The notes under the pieces: generated by a model | What the model was told of the DNA's origin: nothing | Databases searched by the model: none | The model's input: only the letters and a program-made list of their open reading frames with translations | Shown here: positions 15,412 through 27,004 of the stretch, one piece after another | Layout of the letters: each line of letters starts with the position of its first letter | Position numbering within the stretch: the stretch's first letter is position 1 | Made by a program: the position numbers and the translations under genes | Assembly: GCA_030747595.1 (NCBI GenBank) | Contig: JASLKK010000013.1 | Span: 1 to 46,973 of the forward strand | DNA from: Acidimicrobiales bacterium | GTDB lineage: Bacteria; Actinomycetota; Acidimicrobiia; Acidimicrobiales; MedAcidi-G1 | Direction of reading: 5' to 3' | Length of the DNA stretch: 46,973 nt

Positions 15412-16581
15412 CTAGTCCCAGCCCCCGGTGGTCCCGCTCGTGATGTCACGGTCGGTGCCGGTGGCAAGTGTCTCCAGGCGATCGTCGTAGTCGGTAACCA
15501 CGGTGCGCCAGTCAAACCGTCGAATGGCCTCGTCTAGGCCGACCATCCGGGCGCGCCAGCCATCGAGGTCGACCAGTACGTCACGCAGACGGGTCCGCAG
15601 GCCACCTTCCGGATAGAGGGCGTCCTCGGACCACGATCCCACCAGCTCCGGGTAGCTCTGCCCGGTCGGGAGGACCGGCACGCAGCCGGCGGCCATGGCT
15701 TCCACCACGGCGATCCCGAAGAACTCGTGGTGCGCCGCGCTGACCACCACATCTGACCGGTCCAACAGGTCGACGTAGGCGGCCCGGTCCTGGAACCCCC
15801 AGGCCACCACCCGATCGCCAAGGTGGTCCCGAGCCTCGACGAACTCCCTCGGATCGACCCGTTCATTCTCGCCTACCAGAGCCACCCTAAAGGCCACGCC
15901 CTCGTCGGCCAGGTGGCGTAGCGCATTCAGCACAGCCTTCGGGTTCTTGTCGTGATCCCAGCGTTGGTTCCAGAGCACCAGCGGGCCCGTCGAATTGGCG
16001 GAAACGATCTCTTCAGAAACCGTCCCTTCAGGAATGGGCACGTCGGCCAAGTCGACGCCCACGGGCACCACGTGGCACCGGTCGGCCACCTCGCTCAGGA
16101 ATCCGACATGGGAATGGTCGGGGGCCCGCTTCAGGAGGTCGGGCAGGGCGGCCAACAGTCCATCGCGCTGGAACGCCGAGTTGCACCACACCTGGTCGGC
16201 GCCGGCCATCCCCATCCAGTTGACCAACGGCATCTCGTCGGACGCCGACCCCTTCTGGTTGGGACTCACCGGGTACATCAACTGGTTCTCGTGCAGGTAG
16301 AGCACCACCGGCGGATCACCTAGGAAGCGTCGGGTGAGGCCCAGCCAGCCCGCTAGGTCGACCATGCCGGAGACCAGCACCACTTCGGGCGGGCCGTGCT
16401 CGGCCACCGCCCGGCGGGCCGCCTCGGCCAGAGTGAGTGCCCCGCCTCGCATCCGCCAACGCCACGCGGCGGCCGGGTGCGAGACGACGACCATTTCGTG
16501 GCGGCTGTAGGCGACCAAACCATCGGCCCACGCTCCGTGGGAGCCCCCGTAAAACGGTTCGACGAGCAAGACTCGGGCCAT
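15412..16581 (-). CDS. DUF3524 glycosyltransferase, tRNA-queuosine mannosyltransferase-like
   Basis: 389-residue GT-B glycosyltransferase. The N-terminal half is DUF3524: LLVEPFYGGSHGAWADG at residues 5-21, WRWRMRGGAL near 42 and LYLHENQLMYPVSPNQ near 115 closely follow animal GTDC1, the tRNA-queuosine mannosyltransferase. The C-terminal half is a GT4-type donor domain with LWNQRWDHDKNP near 210 and HEFFGIAVVEAMAAGCVPVLP near 300. ATG 16581 is 9 bases after the alr stop; the longer frame overlaps alr. Mannosylation of queuosine in tRNA-Asp is inferred from the family and would need queuosine in the organism. Confidence 0.82.
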   Translation of the reverse strand: MARVLLVEPFYGGSHGAWADGLVAYSRHEMVVVSHPAAAWRWRMRGGALTLAEAARRAVAEHGPPEVVLVSGMVDLAGWLGLTRRFLGDPPVVLYLHENQLMYPVSPNQKGSASDEMPLVNWMGMAGADQVWCNSAFQRDGLLAALPDLLKRAPDHSHVGFLSEVADRCHVVPVGVDLADVPIPEGTVSEEIVSANSTGPLVLWNQRWDHDKNPKAVLNALRHLADEGVAFRVALVGENERVDPREFVEARDHLGDRVVAWGFQDRAAYVDLLDRSDVVVSAAHHEFFGIAVVEAMAAGCVPVLPTGQSYPELVGSWSEDALYPEGGLRTRLRDVLVDLDGWRARMVGLDEAIRRFDWRTVVTDYDDRLETLATGTDRDITSGTTGGWD

Positions 16582-16589
16582 TTTCGGAC

Positions 16590-17708
16590 CTAGGGGTAAC
16601 GTCGGGGCGGGCGTTGACTGAGCGAACAGAGGACCTCCCACGGGATGATCCCGATCGTGTCGGCGACCTCACCGGCCCCGATCTCCTCGTCGCCCTGGCT
16701 GCCCAAAAGGACCACCTCGTCGCCGAGGGAGACCGACCCGTCGACTTCGACCATTAGGGCGTCCATCGAGACGACGCCACGTAATGGCCGGCGTCGACCA
16801 CCCACCAACGCCTCGCCACCCAGGCCCCACGCCCGGGCCAGGCCGTCGGCGTAACCCATGGGTACGGTGGCCAGGATGGTCTCGTGGTCGGCCACCCAAC
16901 GGTGGCCGTACCCCACTCCCTCGCCTGACGGCACGACATGCAGGTGAGTGACCTCACTGCGGATGGACATGGCCTGACGAAGACCAAGCGCCCGGCAGGG
17001 CTCAGCCACGTCCGGGCCGGGCGATACGCCGTACATTCCGATGCCGACCCGGACCAACGAACGGTGGGTGTCGGGACGGGTGACCGAAGCAGCCGTGTTG
17101 GCCAGGTGGACGACCGGCGGTTCGATACCTACGGCGGCCAGGGTGGCCAGCACGGCGTTGAAGCGGTCAACCTGCACCCCGGTGAACGGATCCTCAGGCA
17201 CATCGGCCGTTGAACAGTGCGAGAACACTCCCTCAAGGATTAGGCCGGTGTCACTGATGTGGCGCGCCGTGGCTAGTGCCTCCTCGGGCCGCACCCCGAC
17301 CCGGTGCATTCCGGTATCGACCTTCAGATGGACGGCCGACGGGCCTACCCCGGCCCGGGTCGAGTGGACCGCGGCGGCATAGGCGTCGATCCCGACCGGC
17401 GTGTAGAGGGTGGGGCGCACCCCACCGAGGGCCACCACCTCGGCCATCTCATCGGGCCTTGGTTCGGACAGGACCAAGATGGGAGCGGTCAGCCCGGCCG
17501 CCCGGAGATCGGCGGCCTCCTCGACCAGGGCCACGGCCAACCAGGTGGCTCCGGCCCGTACCGCCGCGTCAGCCACCGCCGGGGCACCGTGGCCGTACCC
17601 GTCAGCCTTGACAACCGCGCAGACGGCGGCGTCACCCACCAGGGCGTCAAAGGCGGCCACGTTGTGGCCCACGGCGTCCAAGTCGACCGACACCCAGGTG
17701 GGACGCAT
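16590..17708 (-). CDS. alr: alanine racemase
   Basis: 372-residue PLP enzyme that makes D-alanine for peptidoglycan. The PLP lysine is Lys34 in VVKADGYGHG; HLKVDTGMHRVG near residue 127, the GIGMYG segment and the catalytic tyrosine region PMGYADGLAR are all standard. ATG 17708 overlaps the nnr stop as TGATG. The neighbourhood with nnr, acpS and t6A genes is the common actinobacterial one. Confidence 0.96.
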   Translation of the reverse strand: MRPTWVSVDLDAVGHNVAAFDALVGDAAVCAVVKADGYGHGAPAVADAAVRAGATWLAVALVEEAADLRAAGLTAPILVLSEPRPDEMAEVVALGGVRPTLYTPVGIDAYAAAVHSTRAGVGPSAVHLKVDTGMHRVGVRPEEALATARHISDTGLILEGVFSHCSTADVPEDPFTGVQVDRFNAVLATLAAVGIEPPVVHLANTAASVTRPDTHRSLVRVGIGMYGVSPGPDVAEPCRALGLRQAMSIRSEVTHLHVVPSGEGVGYGHRWVADHETILATVPMGYADGLARAWGLGGEALVGGRRRPLRGVVSMDALMVEVDGSVSLGDEVVLLGSQGDEEIGAGEVADTIGIIPWEVLCSLSQRPPRRYP

Positions 17709-19141
17709 CAGCTTGCGCCTCCCGAGGCATCGACGGAAAGGTTGGTCAGCACGGACACCAGCCTCGCCGCAAGATCGCCCGCCGCCACCCCGGTGGACGA
17801 ACCCGCCATCGGGGGGCCATCAATGCCCGGCCCGGTGACCAGGCGTCCGTGCACATGGGCGGCGGCGGCCGCGGCCTCCAACGGCGCGGCCCCACGGGCA
17901 AGGAAGGCCCCGATGATCCCAGCCAGCACATCACCGGACCCAGCGGTAGCCAGGCGGGCGTCGCCCGCCGCGGCGAACCGAACCTGGCCGTCGGGGGCGG
18001 CGACCACCGTGGTCGGACCCTTCAGGAGCACCACAGCGCCGGTATCGGCAGCTAGGGCACGGGCGGCAGCCATGCGGTCCAAACCAGGCGGCCCACCGGC
18101 CAGACGGGTGAACTCACCGTCGTGCGGGGTCAGGATCAGCGGCCTCCCCGCGGTAGCCACCCGACCGCCGGCCGGGACGGTGAGGGCGGCCAGGCCATCA
18201 CCATCGATGACTAGCGGTGGGCCCGACGAGGCCACCAGCCGTCGCACTGCGTCGGCCACCTCGGGGGCGGTCCCCAATCCCGGGCCGACCACCATCGAGG
18301 CGAACCGGTCCCCGTCCAAGCCCTCGGGGCCATCTAGCCCCAGGTCAGTGGTGACGGGCATCCGTACCACCTCGGCCGGGACACCCAGCTCGTCGGAAAT
18401 ACCCGGGCCATCGTCGCCGGGTACAGACAGACGGACGTAGCCCGCCCCGGCCCGCAGCGCCGCGGTGGCGGCCAGACCAGCGGCCCCCTTCATGCCCGAT
18501 GAGCCAGCGATGACCCAGCAGGCCCGCTGCCACTTGTGGGCGTTGACCGGACGTGGGGGCACCAGGCCAGCGATGTCGCCGTCGGTCAGCAGATAGGACG
18601 TCGCCCCCGACACGTCGAGACCCAGGTCCACCACCTCGATCCGTCCAGCCAGCGCCGGACCGTCACCGAACAACAGGCCCGGCTTGAGGGCCGCAAAGGT
18701 CACGGTCCGACGAGCGCTTAGGGGCCGACCCCGCGCCTCGCCGGTCAGACCGTCGAGGCCCGACGGGAGGTCCACGGCCAGTACCGGAGCGACGACGGCG
18801 GGTGCATCAAAAGGGCGGCCAAGCCCGGTGCCGTAAGCGGCATCCACTACCAGGTCCACCGCGTGATCCCCCGCGGTCGGTAGGTGGTCCGAGGTTGCGG
18901 CAGCATCAACGACCGTCGCCCGCACCCCCCGTCGGGCCAGCAGACCGGCGGCCACCCGGCCATCTGCGCCGTTGGATCCCTTGCCGGCAAGCACGGCCAC
19001 TCGCCGTCCGTATCCTCCACCCAACTCGTCCAGTACGGCACGGGCCACTGCGGCACCGGCCCGTCCGATCAGGACCTCTAGCGGTTCAGTTGCCGCGGCA
19101 TCCACGGTGGCCATCTCATCCGGCGTACACACCGGGATCAC
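17708..19141 (-). CDS. nnr: bifunctional NAD(P)H-hydrate epimerase/dehydratase
   Basis: 477-residue fusion that repairs hydrated NAD(P)H. The N-terminal epimerase domain (about 1-200) has VLAGKGSNGADGRV and VDAAYGTGLG; the C-terminal ADP/ATP-dependent dehydratase domain (about 215-477) has VIAGSSGMKGAAGLA, LILTPHDGEF and GSGDVLAGIIGAFLARG. The start is GTG 19141 (VIPVCTPDEM), 14 bases after the acpS stop. Stop overlaps the alr start. Confidence 0.95.
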   Translation of the reverse strand: MIPVCTPDEMATVDAAATEPLEVLIGRAGAAVARAVLDELGGGYGRRVAVLAGKGSNGADGRVAAGLLARRGVRATVVDAAATSDHLPTAGDHAVDLVVDAAYGTGLGRPFDAPAVVAPVLAVDLPSGLDGLTGEARGRPLSARRTVTFAALKPGLLFGDGPALAGRIEVVDLGLDVSGATSYLLTDGDIAGLVPPRPVNAHKWQRACWVIAGSSGMKGAAGLAATAALRAGAGYVRLSVPGDDGPGISDELGVPAEVVRMPVTTDLGLDGPEGLDGDRFASMVVGPGLGTAPEVADAVRRLVASSGPPLVIDGDGLAALTVPAGGRVATAGRPLILTPHDGEFTRLAGGPPGLDRMAAARALAADTGAVVLLKGPTTVVAAPDGQVRFAAAGDARLATAGSGDVLAGIIGAFLARGAAPLEAAAAAAHVHGRLVTGPGIDGPPMAGSSTGVAAGDLAARLVSVLTNLSVDASGGAS

Positions 19142-19155
19142 GTCGGATCGACTCC

Positions 19156-19521
19156 TCAGAGAGCGACGACGGTCGCCTGGGCCAGAGTGTCAGTGTGGCT
19201 CAGTGTGACCAACCAGCGGCTCACGCCGGCCCGCCGGGCCACCTCGGCTGACTCACCGTGGAGCACCATCGAAGGAGGCCCCAGCCCGTCGCGCACCACC
19301 TCGATGTCGTACATGTCCATCCCGCCGAGACCCAGACCGAGAGCCTTGAGCGTCGCCTCCTTGGCCGCGAACCGCACCGCGTAGCGACTGGCCGGGTCCA
19401 CATGGGCATCGGCATAGGCCCGCTCAGCCGGTCGGAACAGCCGGTCTCGTAGCGACGGCGTGCGATCCAACGAGCCTCGGAACCGGTCGATATCGACTAG
19501 GTCCACTCCGATGCCGATCAT
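19156..19521 (-). CDS. acpS: holo-[acyl-carrier-protein] synthase
   Basis: 121-residue 4'-phosphopantetheinyl transferase that activates ACP. The two magnesium-binding motifs are IGVDLVDIDRF (Asp7) and FAAKEATLKALG near residues 55-66. ATG 19521 gives the normal length; the frame upstream to 19578 overlaps the GlmS-like gene. In the same transcript direction 19 bases after that gene. Confidence 0.95.
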   Translation of the reverse strand: MIGIGVDLVDIDRFRGSLDRTPSLRDRLFRPAERAYADAHVDPASRYAVRFAAKEATLKALGLGLGGMDMYDIEVVRDGLGPPSMVLHGESAEVARRAGVSRWLVTLSHTDTLAQATVVAL

Positions 19522-19540
19522 GGTCGGTAGAGCGCCGGAC

Positions 19541-22500
19541 TCAGGCCCGGAGCCGGTCGGCCCGCAGTCGGTCAGCAATGTCCGACACCGGGTCAGTCAA
19601 CAGGTCGACCACCGACACCTCGGCTAGCAAGTCGTCTCGTAGGTCGGGCTCAGTCTCACAAACCGCGTCACGCACCGCGGAATAGCGGTTGCCATAGCCC
19701 TGCAGCACGCCACGCAGGACGTCCGGGGTGAGGCGCTCGCGCAACACCACGTGCAGCAGGGTGATACCCACCGTCTCGCGGTCCTTGACCTCGGGCACCA
19801 GCACGATGATCCGGTCGTCGCGGGCACCCCGGGTCACCAAGACGTCACGATCCACAGCCACCCGATGCTTGGTGCCCCGCAGGGCCGGGTCCCTATCAGT
19901 ACGCGAGCGGATTCCCGTCGACACCCCAGCACGGTCCACGATCGCCGCGGTCGGCGAAGCCCCGTCCAGGCCGTCCACCCGGTAGCGGGTGTAGCCGGCG
20001 ACGTCGGACACCGCCGGATCCAGGGCAACCAGTGCCCGAAGTGTCCGGTAGCTGAGCGAATCACGAGGCGCCCCGGCGTCGAGCACCTCACGGGCCAAGC
20101 GGGCGTCCAACAGGGTCTCGTCAGTCCTTGAGATGCCCACGGTCACCGTCTTTGCCTGATGCTTGATGGCGTCGATGGGTCTGGTCAGCTCCTCGATTGC
20201 CACGGTCAACGCGGCGGCCAGATCGTCCAGCACCAGTGCCGGCGTGCCGACCCGACCGAACTCCAACTGGTACGACTCCAACGGCACGGCGCCCAGAGCA
20301 AACCGAAACAACGTCGACAGGCGCACCGCTGTGGACGCCTCGAGGTGCCCGTTGAGCCGCCCGTTTCGCAACTCGTCGGCGAAGGTACTGGCGGCGGCGC
20401 CCAACTCGGTGGCCAAGCCTGGGGTCAACGCATCGGGTAACGCCTCGGGGGCGGAGGAGTCAGTCCCCGGGTCGTCCGACGTCGCCTGGACCGCCCCGCC
20501 GGCCAAGCGACGCTCGGCCTCGGCCTCGATCGCCGCGTGGGCGGACCGCAGCACGTGGGCCTGAGCGTCAATGGCCCGGGCCGCCTCGTAGCCGAACAGA
20601 TGGCCGACCATGGTGGACAGCAGGAAGGCCAGACGGGGATGCACCGGCGGTACCGACACCACGTCGTGAGCATCGGCGAATCTCGACGAGCCGGCGTCGG
20701 CCACCACCACTGGCAGCGCCTTATGCGCCCGGTAGATGGCCACCTCCTTGGCCACGTCATCGGCTGTGGAACCGACCAGGCCGGTGGCGCACACCAGGAT
20801 CAGCGGCTCCGACGAGAGGTCGATGTGCTTCTTGTCCTCAGTGGCATCCGCGGCGATCGACTTGTAACAGAGTTCCGACAGTTTGATCCGGATCTCGCGG
20901 GCTGCCACCAGGTTGGGTCCACTCCCCACCACGGCCCAGTAGCGCCGACCCGGGGCGTGCCGTGAGGCGATCGACGCCACCTGGTCACGCATCCCCAGCA
21001 CCTCGACCATCGCGTCGGGCAGGGCCCGCAACCCGGTCAGCACGTCGGCCCGATCGGGCGCACCGGGGGCCCCGGCCGCGTCAGCAATCGCCACGGCTAG
21101 CAGGATCCCGGCCACCGCCTGGGCGTAGAAGGCCTTCGTGGAGGCCACGCTCATCTCTACGTCGCGACCATCGGACGTGTACAACACGCCGTCGGCCCGG
21201 CCGACCAGGTCGCTGTTGCGCCGGTTCACGATGGCCACCACCCGGGCACCCCGGGTCCGCACCAGATCGACAGTGCGATTGGTGTCTGTCGTCGTCCCCG
21301 ACTGGCTGATGGCCACTACGAGGGTGTCGGACATGTCCGGCGTCAGGCCGAAGCCCGAGAGTTCGGTGGCCGGTAGGTCCTCCACGATGATGCCGTCGGA
21401 CCCAGCCAGTTCAGCCTCGAGGGCACGGGCCACCGAGCCACCTGCGATGGCCGCTGTGCCCTGGCCGATGATCAGGATCCGTCGAATCGATCCGTCAGAC
21501 AGGCCGGCCCGCACATCGGCTCCCAGCGCGTCCTCCCCCAGACGGACCCGCCAGACCGCGGGGGTATCGCCGACAGGCACAAGCCGGCCACGCAGGGTGG
21601 CCCTGACCGAGTCCGGAGACTCGCCGATTTCCTTTAGGAGAAAGTGGGGGTGATCGCCCCGGTCGATATCCCGGGTGGTGATCTCGGCTCGGGCCAGATC
21701 GGCCTCGGTGACCGGCAACGATCGTCCGTCATACGACCGTCGGACCATCCCGTGGAGCGTCCCCGCCAGCGCACCGTCCAACTCCAGGATCTGGCCCCGG
21801 CTGGCCCCCGGATCGTCCGGATCGGCCGGTGTCTCGCCATCCATCCGGACGAACTCAGTCGTCACCTCCACCACCCCGTAGGGTTCGGAGGCCACGACGT
21901 AGGCGTCCTCGGCTAGGCCCACGTAAAGCCCCTGGCCGCTGCCTCGCAGAGCGAGGAGGAGCCTGTCGGGCGCGTCGCCGATCGCCGCCCCGATGGCCAC
22001 TGACCCATCAAAGACGCTCACCGCCCGGCGGAATGCCTCGGAACGATCATGGCCGGCAGCCAAATGGGTGGCACACAGCACCGGTATCACCTTGGCGTCG
22101 GTGGTTATCTCCGGAGCCACGCTGAGACCCTCGGACACCATCAAGTCGGCGTGGTTGTCGACATCACCGTTGAGCACCGCGGTGACCAGCGGGACTGCCA
22201 CCCCATCGGCCCGAACAGAATCCACCGGGTGGGCGTTGGACTCGGAGATCAGGCCCACGCTGGCCCACCGGGTGTGGCCCAGGATCGACCCCTCCACCCC
22301 GGGGGCGACCAGAGCCCGGGCCAGAAGGCCGTCGGCAGCCAACGACGCACGTAGGACCGCCGTGTTGTCGCCCAGCTCGCCTATCTCGGCTGCCGCCTTG
22401 ACCACGAAGGCCAGACCACCGCCGTCCAGCACCCGGACACTGCCCGTGCGGTGGAGACCGTCGACCGTTCGGCCGGCCACCTCCGGGTCGTCAGCAGCCA

Positions 22501-23068
22501 GATCGTGATTCCAGACCGTCACCTGGATACCGGCTGAATCCCGGCCCCTGACCTCGAGGCGGTCGATGGCCGACAGGGCCTGTTGGATCGAGAGGAGGAC
22601 ACCCAGCCCGGCGTCGCTCGGTGCGATGCGAGGCGAACGGAGTGATCCCACTCCGACGTGGGTACCGAGCCTGTCCCGGGTCACGCCCCAGACGGCATCC
22701 CGCAGTGCTACCAGGGCGGCATTGGCCACTTCGACTCCGTCGGATGAATCCGATCCGTCTGGAGTGGTCACCCGACGCTCCAGCACCGCTTCCATCCCAG
22801 CGATCTGATCCGGAAGATCAGCCAGTGCCGCGGTGATCCGCCCGGCCAGACCAGCATCCCGATCGAGGGCCAGGAGCCCGGGGAGGCCTCCCAGCAGACG
22901 ATCGGCCTCGGCGATCTGACCAGCGGCCGTGGTCACCCGGTCAGCCATCTGCGGGCCGTCAGGCCCGCCGAGCAGCGCGGTGGCGTCGACGAGCAGCGTC
23001 AGGATCGACTCGGCGGTGGGAACGTCCCGGGAGGGCGGCCTTCGGAGGATCGCGATTATGCCGCACAT
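19541..23068 (-). CDS. glmS: oversized GlmS-like glutamine amidotransferase/SIS protein, 1175 residues
   Basis: Expected role: glutamine plus fructose-6-phosphate to glucosamine-6-phosphate, feeding glmM next door. The start is fixed by Cys2 of MCGIIA and an AGGAGG site. The RG-DSAG motif comes at 174-180, about 150 residues later than in normal GlmS, because of a helical insertion. GHTRWA (264-269), SESNAHP (275-281) and LNGD (299-302) complete the class II amidotransferase. SIS1 has ISQSGTTTDT (587-596) and VASTKAF (641-647); SIS2 covers about 706-830. A KHQAKTVTV segment (969-977) resembles the catalytic C-terminal LAKSVTV loop of GlmS but lies 130 residues late and is followed by 198 extra residues. 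Normal GlmS has about 610. No stop or frameshift explains the size. Confidence 0.8.
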   Translation of the reverse strand: MCGIIAILRRPPSRDVPTAESILTLLVDATALLGGPDGPQMADRVTTAAGQIAEADRLLGGLPGLLALDRDAGLAGRITAALADLPDQIAGMEAVLERRVTTPDGSDSSDGVEVANAALVALRDAVWGVTRDRLGTHVGVGSLRSPRIAPSDAGLGVLLSIQQALSAIDRLEVRGRDSAGIQVTVWNHDLAADDPEVAGRTVDGLHRTGSVRVLDGGGLAFVVKAAAEIGELGDNTAVLRASLAADGLLARALVAPGVEGSILGHTRWASVGLISESNAHPVDSVRADGVAVPLVTAVLNGDVDNHADLMVSEGLSVAPEITTDAKVIPVLCATHLAAGHDRSEAFRRAVSVFDGSVAIGAAIGDAPDRLLLALRGSGQGLYVGLAEDAYVVASEPYGVVEVTTEFVRMDGETPADPDDPGASRGQILELDGALAGTLHGMVRRSYDGRSLPVTEADLARAEITTRDIDRGDHPHFLLKEIGESPDSVRATLRGRLVPVGDTPAVWRVRLGEDALGADVRAGLSDGSIRRILIIGQGTAAIAGGSVARALEAELAGSDGIIVEDLPATELSGFGLTPDMSDTLVVAISQSGTTTDTNRTVDLVRTRGARVVAIVNRRNSDLVGRADGVLYTSDGRDVEMSVASTKAFYAQAVAGILLAVAIADAAGAPGAPDRADVLTGLRALPDAMVEVLGMRDQVASIASRHAPGRRYWAVVGSGPNLVAAREIRIKLSELCYKSIAADATEDKKHIDLSSEPLILVCATGLVGSTADDVAKEVAIYRAHKALPVVVADAGSSRFADAHDVVSVPPVHPRLAFLLSTMVGHLFGYEAARAIDAQAHVLRSAHAAIEAEAERRLAGGAVQATSDDPGTDSSAPEALPDALTPGLATELGAAASTFADELRNGRLNGHLEASTAVRLSTLFRFALGAVPLESYQLEFGRVGTPALVLDDLAAALTVAIEELTRPIDAIKHQAKTVTVGISRTDETLLDARLAREVLDAGAPRDSLSYRTLRALVALDPAVSDVAGYTRYRVDGLDGASPTAAIVDRAGVSTGIRSRTDRDPALRGTKHRVAVDRDVLVTRGARDDRIIVLVPEVKDRETVGITLLHVVLRERLTPDVLRGVLQGYGNRYSAVRDAVCETEPDLRDDLLAEVSVVDLLTDPVSDIADRLRADRLRA

Positions 23069-23187
23069 GTGTTGATCACCCTCCTGTTGCTCGATGCCTG
23101 TCGTTGTTTGGTCGTCGCCGGCCGTTCGTTGTCGGCACAAGATCGCAGGCCGGCCCGGTTTACAGGCACTCTAGGAATCGTACGGGG

Positions 23188-24618
23188 TTAGTACCGGTCG
23201 GCCCGGCGGACGCTCTCGACAAGACGATCGGCCACCGCTGCGGCCTCGGCCGCGTCAAAAGCCTCGACCATGACCCGAACCACCGGTTCGGTCCCCGAAG
23301 GGCGCACTAGCACGCGGCCCGCCGAGCCCAACTGGGCGGCGGCCTCGGTCACCTCGTCAGCCATCGATGCCACCACCGTGACACCATCGGCTGACACCGG
23401 AACAGCGTGCAGCACCTGGGGGGCGCGCACCATCAGGTCAGCCACCCGGCCACCGAGAGTTCGGCCGGCACGGCCCGCCGCCACCAGGGCCTGGATGCCC
23501 GTCAATAGGCCATCGCCGGTGGTGGCCATGGACCGGAAGATCACGTGGCCGGACTGCTCACCACCTAGGACCCAGCCATTGGCCTCCAAGGCCTCGAGGA
23601 CGTAGCGGTCGCCGACGGCCGTCTCGTGCACGGCGATGCCGTGGTCGGCCAACGCTCGGCGCAGGCCCAGGTTGGCCATGACGGTGACGGCCATGGTGTC
23701 GCCGGTCAGCAGCCCACGATCGTGGAGGTCGATACCGCACACAGCCAGTAGGTCATCACCGTCGAGCAGGGTCCCGTCGTCGCTCACGGCAATCACACGG
23801 TCGCCGTCGCCATCGAAGGCGAGGCCGGCGTCAGCCCCCGTCTGGAGCACGGCGGCCCGAAGGTCGTCCGGATGCGTCGAGCCACACCCTTCGTTGATGT
23901 TGCGGCCATCAGGCGAGGCGTGTATCACGCCCACCTCGGCACCCAGTCGACGCAGGATGTCGGCCGCGAACGCTGAGGTGGCACCGTTGGCGCAGTCCAC
24001 GACTAGGGATCGTCCGGCCAGGGGTCGCTCGTCAACCTGCTGCCTGGCGACCTCCCGCCCATCGAGAGACCCCTCATAGATCGCCCATCTGATCAAGGCT
24101 TCGACCCAACGACGACCAGCGGCGGTCTCCTCGGAGGGGTCGTCCCAGTCGGGCGCCACCCTCGGACCATCGAGCCGGGGGCAGGCGTCCCACGCCTCCT
24201 GGATCGCCGACTGCACCCGGTCATCGAGCTTTCGGCCCCCAGCGGCGAACAACTTGATCCCGTTGTCGAACCACGGGTTGTGCGACGCCGAGACCACCGC
24301 GCCAGCCACCCCGTCGATCTGGCACTCGTGTGCGACAGTAGGTGTGGGGACAACCCCGAGGGAGGTGACGTCGAGACCACCGTCCACCAGGCCTTCGGCC
24401 AGTGCAAGGGCAAGAGCAGGACCCGACTCACGGGTGTCGCGGCCGATGACCACACAATCCGCTCCCAGATGGGCCGCCGCGGCACGCCCCAGGGCCCGTA
24501 CCGCCGGCTCATCGAGAACGGAACCGGCCCGGGCGCGGACGCCGTCAGTACCGAATCGCAGCACCTGTCCTGAAGCTGCCGGTCCTGAGGAAGGCGGATG
24601 CACTGAGCGTCCGGTCAT
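23188..24618 (-). CDS. glmM: phosphoglucosamine mutase
   Basis: 476-residue phosphohexomutase that turns glucosamine-6-phosphate into glucosamine-1-phosphate for UDP-GlcNAc. LRFGTDGVR at the N-terminus, phosphoserine loop SASHNPWFDNGIK, metal loop DGDGDR, sugar loop GGEQSGH and phosphate loop RPSGTEPVVRVM are all intact. ATG 24618 (MTGRSVHPP) gives a short extension ahead of the domain. It follows rpsI as in other Actinobacteria, and a run of eight C lies in the gap (24657-24664). The GlmS-like gene follows after 119 bases. Confidence 0.95.
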   Translation of the reverse strand: MTGRSVHPPSSGPAASGQVLRFGTDGVRARAGSVLDEPAVRALGRAAAAHLGADCVVIGRDTRESGPALALALAEGLVDGGLDVTSLGVVPTPTVAHECQIDGVAGAVVSASHNPWFDNGIKLFAAGGRKLDDRVQSAIQEAWDACPRLDGPRVAPDWDDPSEETAAGRRWVEALIRWAIYEGSLDGREVARQQVDERPLAGRSLVVDCANGATSAFAADILRRLGAEVGVIHASPDGRNINEGCGSTHPDDLRAAVLQTGADAGLAFDGDGDRVIAVSDDGTLLDGDDLLAVCGIDLHDRGLLTGDTMAVTVMANLGLRRALADHGIAVHETAVGDRYVLEALEANGWVLGGEQSGHVIFRSMATTGDGLLTGIQALVAAGRAGRTLGGRVADLMVRAPQVLHAVPVSADGVTVVASMADEVTEAAAQLGSAGRVLVRPSGTEPVVRVMVEAFDAAEAAAVADRLVESVRRADRY

Positions 24619-24674
24619 GTCGGCAGCGTAGGAGCCAGCCGGGGACCAGTCCCCGACCCCCCCCACGCCGTCGA

Positions 24675-25067
24675 TCAGCGCTTGGAGTACTGCGGAGCCT
24701 TGCGGGCCTTGTGGAGTCCGTACTTCTTGGACTCCTTCTTGCGATCGTCGCGGGTCAGCAGGCCAGCCTCCTTGAGGGCCGGACGACGCTCGGGCTCTAG
24801 GGCCTCTAGTGCACGGGCGATGCCGAGGCGCATGGCCCCCGCTTGACCAGCGATGCCGCCGCCGTGCAGGGTGGCGTCGATGTCGTAGGCGCCCTCCGTG
24901 GCGGTGACCCTCAGCGGCTCGGTGAACACCAGACGGTGGCTCTCCGACGGGAAGTAGTCCTCGGCCGTACGACCGTTGACGGTGACCGTGCCGTTGCCCG
25001 GGCGCAGGCGCACACGAGCGACCGACTCCTTGCGGCGACCAGTGGATTGGATGAGGGGGCTGGGCAT
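24675..25067 (-). CDS. rpsI: 30S ribosomal protein S9
   Basis: 130 residues. [13 protein letters not shown] opens the fold, [19 protein letters not shown] is the conserved middle, and the C-terminal tail ends in the QYSKR that contacts P-site tRNA. ATG 25067 has AGGAG 6 bases upstream. Paired with rplM, 26 bases upstream, as in nearly all bacteria. Confidence 0.97.
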
Positions 25068-25093
25068 CAGGTGCTCCTGTCAGGGCCGGCCGC

Positions 25094-25546
25094 TCAGGCC
25101 GTGCGGGCCCGTGCGTGATCGATGGCCAGCGGCTGGGGCTGCTGTGCCTCGTGGGGATGATCGGCGCCGCGGTACACCTTCAGCTTGGTGAGCTGCTGGC
25201 GGCCCAGGCGGTTCTTGGGAATCATCCCCCGGATGGTCCGGCGGATGGCCTCTTCGGGCTTCTTGGCCAGGAAGGTGCCGTAGGCCTGGGTCTTCAGACC
25301 GCCCGGGTAACCCGAGTGGTCGTAAACGTTCTTGTCGGTGTTCTTGGCGCCCGTCAGCACGACTTTTTCGGCGTTGATGATCACCACGTGGTCACCGGTG
25401 TCGATGTGGGGCGTGAAGGTCGGCTTGTGCTTGCCGCGTAGGATCGACGCGACCTCGGACGCCATACGACCGAGGATCATGCCCTCGGCGTCGACGACGT
25501 GCCAGACGCGCTCGATTTCGCTGGCCCTGGGGGTGTAGGTGGACAC
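25094..25546 (-). CDS. rplM: 50S ribosomal protein L13
   Basis: 150 residues, an early assembly protein of the 50S subunit. [16 protein letters not shown] and [16 protein letters not shown] are diagnostic, and [20 protein letters not shown] lies near the end. GTG 25546 ([10 protein letters not shown]) matches the usual N-terminus; the open frame upstream to 25627 is leader DNA. First gene of the rplM-rpsI pair. Confidence 0.96.
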
Positions 25547-25610
25547 GGTTGACCGCCTGTACTTGATCGGAGACTGGTTGGGAAGGCTGCTGGAAGCCTC
25601 AAGGAGGATT

Positions 25611-25640
25611 CCTAGAGGACGCGGCACGACCGGGGGTCAA
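25611..25640 (-). promoter_or_regulatory. possible rplM-rpsI promoter
   Basis: On the minus strand TTGACC (25640-25635), 18 bases, then TCTAGG (25616-25611). The -35 is good and the -10 poor. Just upstream, 25653-25682 can fold into a hairpin (CCCAGG with CCTGGG, plus an inner CGG/CCG). The 240-base gap between truA and rplM otherwise shows nothing I can name. Confidence 0.3.
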
Positions 25641-25786
25641 GGCTAGGGCCGGCCCAGGACCCCGGCAACCCGTCGACCTGGGATGGGACGCGTGCCACAG
25701 CGGGCCCAAAACCGGGATTCGGAAACCACTATCAGCGCCACGGCTCATTCCTGGCCGTTTAACCGATCCGGTGCCCGCAGAAAACG

Positions 25787-26560
25787 TCAGCCGTAGGTAA
25801 CCGACCAGAAGACAAGGCCCTGGGCCGGAGCGGAATCCGCCGCAATACGTCGATCCTCGGCAGCCAGCACGGCGGGGATTACGTCAATGGCCAGCTCACC
25901 GCGGCCGATATCCACCAATGTTCCAACAATGGTTCGGACCATCCGCTGGCAGAAGGCCGACGCGGACACCTCGAACTCCAACAGGTCCGCTCCCGACGGA
26001 CCATCGGGCAACCTCCGCCACGAGGCTGCGGTCACCCTCCGCATCATGGTGGGCATCGACCCGTCCGGTCGAGGAGCCTGCTGAAGGCAGAACGACGTGA
26101 AGTCGTGCAGGCCCACCAGGTCGGCCGATGCAGCCTCCATGGCGGCCACGTCGAGAGGCTCGGCCACGTGCCAAACCCGGGTGACCAGCAGCGGATCGGG
26201 TTCCAGGCGATCCAGGATCCGGTACCGGTAGGTCCGACCGGTAGCCGAGAACCGGGCGTCGAAATCATCGGCGGCCCGCTGAATGGAGGTCAGGACCACG
26301 GAGGGTCCGATCCGCCGGTTCACGATGTCGCGCAGCGTCTCGAGCTCGGCGTCCGAACGCTCCGACAGATCGAAACCCACTACCTGGCCCACGGCGTGCA
26401 CGCCGCGGTCCGTGCGGCCAGCACACGTCAGGGTCACCTCGGTCCGTAGGACGCGTGACAACACGTCGACCAGCAAGCCGGCGACGGTGGGTACGCCTGC
26501 ATTGGCGGCGAACCCGTGGAACGGGGCCCCGTCATAGGCGACGGTCGCCCTAGCCCTCAT
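25787..26560 (-). CDS. truA: tRNA pseudouridine synthase A
   Basis: 257-residue enzyme that makes pseudouridine at positions 38-40 of tRNA. VAYDGAPFHGFAAN at the N-terminus and the catalytic aspartate in CAGRTDRGVHAVGQV (residues 47-61) are intact; FCQRMVRTIVGTLVDIGRG is the C-terminal signature. ATG 26560 is the third of three tandem ATGAGGG copies, and each earlier copy opens a four-codon mini-ORF ending in TAATG, so translation may depend on reinitiation. Placed after rplQ as in mycobacteria. Confidence 0.94.
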   Translation of the reverse strand: MRARATVAYDGAPFHGFAANAGVPTVAGLLVDVLSRVLRTEVTLTCAGRTDRGVHAVGQVVGFDLSERSDAELETLRDIVNRRIGPSVVLTSIQRAADDFDARFSATGRTYRYRILDRLEPDPLLVTRVWHVAEPLDVAAMEAASADLVGLHDFTSFCLQQAPRPDGSMPTMMRRVTAASWRRLPDGPSGADLLEFEVSASAFCQRMVRTIVGTLVDIGRGELAIDVIPAVLAAEDRRIAADSAPAQGLVFWSVTYG

Positions 26561-26595
26561 TACAGGACCCTCATTACAGGACCCTCATTAACTGG
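26554..26595 (-). repeat. 14-bp tandem repeat with two mini-cistrons before truA
   Basis: Two perfect 14-base copies of CCCTCATTACAGGA and a partial third. On the minus strand this gives ATG AGG GTC CTG TAA from 26588, then the same from 26574, then the truA ATG at 26560; each TAA overlaps the next ATG. GGAGG at 26601-26597 is well placed, 8 bases before the first ATG, not before truA. Confidence 0.85.
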
Positions 26596-26650
26596 TCCTC
26601 CCACCCCGGTCCGAACATGCTGGAGCGGGATGTGCCCTAAAGGGGCTGGG

Positions 26651-27004
26651 TCAGACGAGCTCGATGCGAGCCATCGGCGCGTTGTCACCATGGCGGGGGC
26701 CGACCTTGAGGATCCGCGTGTAACCACCCGGACGGTCGACGTAGCGGGGACCAATCTCGTCGAAGAGCTTGGCGGCCATCTCACGATCTCGGAGGAACGA
26801 GACCACCTGACGGTGGTTGTGGACACCGCCCTTACGGGCCTTGGTGATCATCTTCTCGGCGATGGGGCGCAGAGCCTTGGCCTTGGCCTCCGTAGTCGTG
26901 ATGCCCTCAGCGGCAATCAGCGACGCCACGAGGTTGGCCATCATCGACTTCTGGTGAGCCGAGCTGCCACCGAAGCGACGGCCCTTCTTGGGGGTTGCCG
27001 GCAT
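26651..27004 (-). CDS. rplQ: 50S ribosomal protein L17
   Basis: 117 residues. [22 protein letters not shown] is the L17 signature and the [23 protein letters not shown] helix follows. Family-typical length for Actinobacteria, where a longer C-terminal tail is sometimes added; here it ends at MARIELV. Starts 4 bases after the rpoA stop. Confidence 0.97.

Follow-up and report, generated by a model that had tools for sequence, protein, structure and literature searches.

The question raised by positions 19541-23068 in a 46,973-nucleotide stretch of DNA from an Acidimicrobiales bacterium (assembly GCA_030747595.1, contig JASLKK010000013.1; the whole stretch is called the window) is whether a protein that resembles GlmS, the maker of the first amino sugar in the bacterial cell-wall pathway, and that is almost twice as large, can serve as the glucosamine-6-phosphate synthase of its host, and what its additional modules would do. 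The answer we propose, on the basis of sequence comparisons and of a predicted structure, is that this long GlmS (protein P0001) is very probably the only glucosamine-6-phosphate synthase of the organism, an enlarged member of a deeply separate lineage that stands in the place of the ordinary enzyme. No published characterisation of a double-size GlmS was found, most of the subscription literature lying outside the search, and we regard the protein as a genuine and, it seems, undescribed form of a known enzyme.

One continuous frame

The long glmS frame lies on the minus strand and runs from an ATG at 23068 to a stop codon at 19541-19543, with no internal stop. The ATG is favoured over a TTG further upstream, the start given in the list of open reading frames, because an AGGAGG motif, read by eye, directly precedes it. 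A first-pass annotation of the DNA letters had given exactly these coordinates, and its description of one continuous frame for a GlmS-like protein of nearly double size agrees with the 1175 stop-free codons, against 609 residues in E. coli GlmS. The spacing between Cys2 and the RG-DSAG motif is enlarged as claimed; given as about 150 residues, it is 172 when counted to R174, with which RGRDSAG begins its Arg residues, and E. coli GlmS has 25 at this place. The distance from the end of SIS2 (about residue 832) to the KHQAKTVTV segment (969-977), given as about 130, is 137 residues, and the 198 residues said to follow that segment are residues 978-1175.

A scan of named genome contigs confirmed at least 549 relatives, the best 80 of which were kept as loci. 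Homologous frames of 1124-1183 residues were found at 79 of these 80 loci, which shows that the long glmS frame is not a chance open reading frame; 78 of the 79 are complete, that of L115 ends at a contig edge and that of L102 has no recognised start. Most of the best 80 loci bear Acidimicrobiia names and the closest relative among them, 96% identical, is labelled Acidimicrobiales; the names Dehalococcoidia and Acidobacteria among the listed relatives are unverified submitter labels. The ratio of non-synonymous to synonymous substitution rates (dN/dS) lies between 0.05 and 0.21 in 12 module comparisons (against L039, L038 and two modules of L037) out of 15, ambiguous bases having prevented the other three with L037, the dS values against L038 being close to or beyond saturation. 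A scan of positions 16000-27000 with Rfam, covering the glmS ribozyme and other families, gave nothing at the gathering score.

Fold and catalytic residues

The AlphaFold2 model of the long GlmS, built from an input of 80 sequences, has a mean predicted local distance difference test score (pLDDT) of 89.1 and a predicted template-modelling score (pTM) of 0.81. Its best structural match is human GFAT-1 (6r4i and others; Z 43.0, 606 residues aligned, root-mean-square deviation (rmsd) 3.4, residues 2-979), and the superposition on E. coli GlmS that the first-pass annotation had named as a check gives Z 41.6 over 597 residues with 1jxa (rmsd 3.9, residues 2-978; Z 41.4-41.6 when 2j6h is included). 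With alignments that run from residue 2 of the model to 979 and 978, the glutaminase domain, the two SIS domains and the C-loop are superposable on known enzymes, the additional modules lying outside. The long form thus shares with E. coli GlmS the domain order, the fold, the key catalytic residues and the C-loop; it differs by an identity of only 29%, by its three added modules, by changes at several conserved residues and by the position of the catalytic loop, which is C-terminal in the E. coli enzyme and internal here. The only runs of at least three residues with a pLDDT under 50 are 871-874 and 974-980, the latter being compatible, in the model, with a mobile loop.

At the level of families, Pfam recognises GATase_6 at residues 261-395 (31.3 bits, above the cut-off of 27) and SIS at residues 529-659 (61.8 bits, above the cut-off), and the second SIS domain, missed by Pfam, is recognised by structure. 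Both SIS motifs and the conserved motif order of the first-pass annotation correspond to a whole glutaminase and two-SIS architecture, found in the sequence as well as in the model. Among 17 long members, Pfam matches up to E 1 comprise SIS and GATase_6 in all 17, GATase_7 in 9, a weak AAA_26 match in 2 (that of P0001 falls on the SIS part) and another eight families, each in a single member.

In a residue alignment of 80 long proteins (that of the window and 79 from the loci) with 26 ordinary GlmS, every row has the same residue at C1, R26, R73, W74, N98, G99, D123, Q348, S349, K403, E481, K485, E488, K503, H504, A602 and K603 (E. coli numbering, also used below); at H86, 79 long rows have His and one is undetermined. 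All 80 long proteins keep C1, R73, N98, G99 and D123, which we take to be the N-terminal nucleophile and the glutaminase pocket, and K485, E488, H504 and the C-loop residue K603, presumably isomerase-catalytic, both SIS domains and the loop aligning structurally as well. The gate tryptophan of the ammonia channel (W74) is W268 of the long form and is present in 80 of 80. The corresponding intact positions of P0001 are C2, R267, W268, N300, G301, D324, K645, K729, E732, H748 and K973. Cys2, reported intact from the letters alone, is thus conserved throughout the long proteins, and the suspected likeness of KHQAKTVTV to the catalytic C-terminal loop is borne out by its AKTVTV, which aligns with the C-terminus of E. 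coli GlmS in the sequence and structural alignments alike. K485 and E488 are named as key residues in the available part of PMC7948480.

Mutual exclusion of the two forms

The distribution of the two forms is nearly exclusive. Ordinary GlmS (about 605-620 residues in the genomes seen) was counted when over the cut-off, and the long form by its specific C-terminal 244 residues. The class of the window, taken from the names of these relatives to be Acidimicrobiia, was sampled with 198 genomes: 104 carry ordinary GlmS, 78 the long form, none both and 16 neither. These 16 include G362, with a match of class-II amidotransferase type only, G339 and G343, with weak or partial matches, and G378, whose partial match (1.1e-54) falls in a 753-residue frame, perhaps a truncated long form. 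Across the phylum, 396 genomes yielded 31 long forms, 9 of them outside the class, and eight of these nine genomes show no ordinary GlmS (two of the eight are only 81% and 64% complete). The complete chromosome of Aquihabitans sp. G128 carries the long form; among 313 matching plasmid records, none covers 80% of the query.

The host genome itself, 95.9% complete, was searched with P0001 and with TIGR01135, and no second GlmS was found, so that the search for a normal glmS that the first-pass annotation had also proposed speaks for the long form. A PurF-like frame of 571 residues and a class-II amidotransferase frame of 326 residues, read by eye, were rejected as a second glmS.

Gene neighbourhood and descent

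The glmM gene, which encodes the next step of the pathway, had been placed next door, and it is indeed found at 23188-24666. Around the 80 long loci the same-strand neighbours are glmM (74), rpsI (70), rplM (68), acpS (67), nnr (64) and alr (60), the loci with enough flank numbering 69, 67, 65, 74, 68 and 59, respectively. For eight ordinary glmS genes of the class, glmM lies upstream in seven (L129 has no glmM, rpsI or rplM match) and acpS downstream in seven (L125 has none of acpS, nnr and alr), at a distance of about 2 kb in L122. Both forms therefore usually adjoin glmM within the same gene cluster, a place beside glmM that the long form shares with bacterial GlmS, as seen in relatives.

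Within the family f45, the genome G146 has an ordinary glmS beside glmM. In G167, a genome outside the class, the 17 kb examined contain truA-rplM-rpsI-glmM but no glmS after it; the long gene (G167:C4:744055, L186) sits on another contig, behind a Peptidase_M24 gene of the methionine-aminopeptidase type. In G103 and G124, also of f45, none of the usual neighbours lies closer than 1.5 kb to the long gene. The location of the G167 gene outside the usual cluster suggests a transfer in this family, and the simplest reading, the loss of the ordinary gene and the gain of the long one, implies equal function.

In a quick maximum-likelihood tree of 598 core columns, a very long branch parts 23 long from 26 ordinary GlmS, the latter including sequences from haloarchaea, Bacteroidota, Fusobacteriota, Bacillota and Pseudomonadota. 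Standing apart from all 26, the long form is not a recently decorated actinobacterial GlmS; the long lineage may be either ancient or fast-evolving, two histories between which a tree with such a branch cannot tell.

The added modules

Both inserts are helical in the model. The N-insert (residues 10-165) has a mean pairwise identity of 35%, with 6 of 156 positions invariant, and the C-insert (833-964) one of 53.5%; a comparison of their profiles, as a test for duplication, found no similarity. The C-loop (965-980) reaches 95.7%. The tail (981-1175), at 56.3%, is near the glutaminase body (59.3%), and 21 of its 195 positions are invariant in the 80 sequences, among them R1002, Y1007, R1028, Y1029, R1056, K1067, D1084, R1086, Y1125, R1128 and E1138. 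N-insert, C-insert and tail are each at least half filled in all 80 aligned sequences. In the 396 phylum genomes, with at most five candidates scored per genome, the long-specific C-terminal segment was met only on long GlmS, bar one weak match (G464, E 6.6e-4), rejected as chance since its frame is methylmalonyl-CoA-mutase-like by eye. A PDB sequence search with the tail gave no match up to E 1, and the Pfam matches of the 17 long members up to E 1 include no PAS or GAF family.

Residues 833-1175, modelled alone, have a pLDDT of 92.1. VIA-align places first 7jsr, the large glutamate dehydrogenase L-GDH180 of Mycobacterium smegmatis (Z 8.9, 162 residues, rmsd 5.0, model 157-342 against chain 175-361), then three helical matches (Z 8.1-8.3), then mostly GAF, PAS and CACHE domains (Z 6.2-7.5) over about model 157-279; with Foldseek, the PDB matches that come after 7jsr are also mostly sensor, PAS, CACHE and GAF domains. 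In BFVD the C-terminal model matches nothing at E 0.001, and the matches of the full model are viral GlmS and amidotransferases. L-GDH180 is an enzyme enlarged by sensor-type ACT and PAS domains, and its PAS-containing segment is described as a possible metabolic sensor (PMC8175468, in the part available). Pfam ends ACT1 at 166-197 and starts helical motif 1 (HM1) at 319-369 in three L-GDH homologues, so that the matched residues 175-361 should comprise the PAS domain together with some of HM1. The catalytic core of L-GDH180 is different from that of the long GlmS, and a search of the host genome for the L-GDH catalytic domain did not find it.

A model for the long GlmS

The model we propose combines the chemistry established for GlmS with the position of the added modules. 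Cys2 would hydrolyse glutamine, the ammonia would pass the tryptophan of the HTRW motif, and Lys973 of the internal C-loop would bind fructose-6-phosphate at the SIS site. The tail is attached to the mobile loop by which the ammonia channel is sealed, and would act as a sensor or a clamp: the binding of a metabolite or of a neighbouring subunit would set the position of the loop and thereby switch the coupling between the active sites on or off. As for the helical inserts, both would serve to hold the halves of the enzyme together or to build the oligomer; a role of the added domains in regulation or assembly had been suggested in the first-pass annotation. In GlmS and GFAT, the Q-loop tryptophan and the C-tail form the hydrophobic ammonia channel, and shifting one domain against the other alters the coupling (PMC7948480 and PMC7000685, both in part). 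A domain located behind the C-loop would be well placed to control the seal of this channel. GFAT-1 is another enlarged GlmS, with an allosteric UDP-N-acetylglucosamine feedback through the interdomain linker, according to the accessible portion of PMC7000685; its chains have 687 residues, and it is regulated at a site in the isomerase domain and the linker, not in a tail domain.

That the long protein functions as GlmS is in all likelihood correct, as far as residues and model can tell, and the first-pass proposal that it still makes glucosamine-6-phosphate is supported by the key catalytic residues and by the lack of a second GlmS in the host genome. The exclusion of the two forms in 198 genomes, the position at the side of glmM and the arrangement in G167 make it the most likely sole synthase. 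For the tail, the chances of a regulatory or conformational role seem to us about even. A true metabolite sensor is a more tentative proposal, and it is with the same reserve that we suggest a PAS/GAF-like tail which would gate the ammonia channel in response to a nitrogen or cell-wall metabolite, giving a bacterial GlmS its own allosteric sensor. If so, a feedback-controlled GlmS would have arisen independently of eukaryotic GFAT, ousted the ordinary enzyme from many Acidimicrobiia and reached other Actinomycetota as well. A double-size GlmS that excludes the ordinary form is also a natural experiment in the rebuilding or regulation of a mobile loop and an ammonia channel. Moreover, since the standard glmS model scores the long form below its cut-off, a genome with the long form may seem devoid of glmS, an apparent gap that recognition of this form closes.

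Alternative readings

Several observations weigh against the model. The NCBIfam glmS equivalog TIGR01135 gives 203.6 bits over residues 262-832, half of its curated cut-off of 418.05. At positions that are invariant or nearly so in the 26 ordinary GlmS, all 80 long proteins are changed (Y25 to V/I, Y28 to R, T76 to S, H77 to V/I/F, C300 to Q, E351 to T, G505 to I, N600 to H, L601 to Q/H and E608 to G) and 75 of 80 have R599 replaced by K; Y497 to D and S303 to A are further changes, at positions that vary in ordinary GlmS. The genome G042 (6.5 Mb, 5% contamination) has both forms, its ordinary GlmS being over the cut-off; its long gene (G042:C313, L188) is without the usual neighbours and its ordinary glmS adjoins glmM, a state due either to contamination or to acquisition. 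As to the tail, the top Foldseek match of the 833-1175 model in the PDB, 7jsr, has an E of 3.5e-3 and none reaches 0.001, the Z values of 6.2-8.9 with sensor domains fall in the range usual for unrelated matches, and hhalign against ten L-GDH N-terminal regions, slices included, gives probabilities under 1%, the profiles being shallow (effective sequence number, Neff, about 2.5-3). Because it has fold matches without profile similarity, we call the tail a sensor-like fold and not a member of a sensor family. The changes at the channel gate can be read more closely: Arg33, Tyr35, Leu675 and Ala676 surround the gate Trp93 in hGFAT2 (PMC7948480, consulted in part), and if they are taken, by motif, as R26, Y28, L601 and A602, the gate retains R26 and A602 but has its other two neighbours exchanged (Y28 to R, L601 to Q), so that the gate region appears rebuilt rather than lost.

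The low equivalog score, the changes near the sugar site, the glutamine site and in the C-loop, and the long branch would also suit a related amidotransferase-isomerase that uses a different substrate or yields a different product, for instance another ketose phosphate, or that works in the deaminase direction. We hold this to be very improbable: the long form occupies the place and has the neighbours of the ordinary gene, the forms exclude each other in the class, the residues K485, E488, H504 and K603 that we assume to be isomerase-catalytic are invariant, and an organism with GlmM and Alr in the same cluster would be left without any GlmS. A bifunctional protein, whose tail, alone or with the C-insert, would be a second catalytic domain acting on glucosamine-6-phosphate or glutamate, might explain the invariant tail positions and the lack of a clear GlmU in the host genome, which leaves the acetylation step unassigned. 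It too is improbable, for a conserved ligand site or interface would give the same invariance, the listed fold matches of the tail are mostly of sensor type, the top enzyme, L-GDH180, matching through its regulatory segment, and long-form genomes of other families, for example G016 of f6, G205 of f73 and G215 of f74, also have a full-length GlmU. The added modules could instead be neutral bulk that merely stabilises the fold or the oligomer, without regulation, a reading that is compatible with GlmS function and whose probability overlaps that of the synthase model. The weak conservation of the N-insert points in that direction; the tail, almost as conserved as the glutaminase body, with a low dN/dS, and the presence of all three modules across the aligned sequences make it rather unlikely, if far from negligible. 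A misassembly or a fusion of frames, for which no supporting point was found, is refuted by the long frames that 79 of the 80 named loci show, the complete Aquihabitans chromosome among them, and its probability is practically nil.

GlmU and the neighbouring genes

In the host genome (G000) no GlmU exceeds the cut-off (best 51.5 bits), and in none of the three genomes of its family is the match a good one, with best E values from 1e-14 to 2e-17. The top two matches of G000, C1:254119-254565 and C1:209980-210597 (L117 and L118), lie in NTP-transferase frames of 396 and 450 residues; the acetyl step and the uridyl step may follow a non-canonical route, or their genes may be unassembled. The tail was rejected as a general GlmU substitute in view of long-form genomes with a full GlmU, such as G016, G205 and G215, and of G166, which has an ordinary GlmS and also a truncated GlmU match. 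Among genomes of the same order, many GlmU matches end at about position 333-362 (mostly 344) of the 452 of the model, in frames mostly of 358-431 residues (for example G134:C3:150984-152036 and G166:C23:36764-37786), with long and ordinary GlmS alike. The part beyond about 344, which we assume to hold the acetyltransferase site region, seems absent from these truncated matches.

Table 1. Features of the long glmS gene and its surroundings in the window.
Feature	Position	Strand	Basis or remark
long glmS (P0001), 1175 codons and stop	19541..23068	minus	
Shine-Dalgarno-like AGGAGG	23080..23085	minus	read by eye
residues 1-9, N-terminal strand, nucleophile Cys2 (MCGI)	23042..23068	minus	C2 in 80/80
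residues 10-165, helical N-insert, least conserved module	22574..23041	minus	absent from ordinary GlmS
residues 166-463, glutaminase body (RGRDSAG, HTRWAS, NG..D)	21680..22573	minus	Pfam GATase_6, structure
residues 464-832, isomerase domain, SIS1 and SIS2	20573..21679	minus	Pfam SIS, alignments with 1jxa and 1moq
residues 833-964, helical C-insert	20177..20572	minus	absent from ordinary GlmS
residues 965-980, catalytic C-loop with KHQAKTVTV, internal	20129..20176	minus	aligns with E. coli C-terminus
residues 981-1175, alpha/beta tail domain, seen only on long GlmS	19544..20128	minus	model, alignments
glmM, phosphoglucosamine mutase	23188..24666	minus	TIGR01455
acpS, longest frame	19156..19578	minus	Pfam/NCBIfam profile search
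nnr, NAD(P)H-hydrate dehydratase/epimerase	17708..19141	minus	
alr, alanine racemase	16590..17708	minus	
rpsI (24675-25067), rplM (25094-25627), truA (25787-26560)	24675..26560	minus	

The glmM gene scores 412.2 bits with TIGR01455, slightly below the cut-off of 447.55. The longest acpS frame overlaps the end of glmS, and the true start of acpS is therefore probably internal. Downstream of alr, positions 15412-16641 encode a glycosyltransferase whose N-terminal domain is that of a tRNA-queuosine alpha-mannosyltransferase (PF12038, E 1.7e-46).

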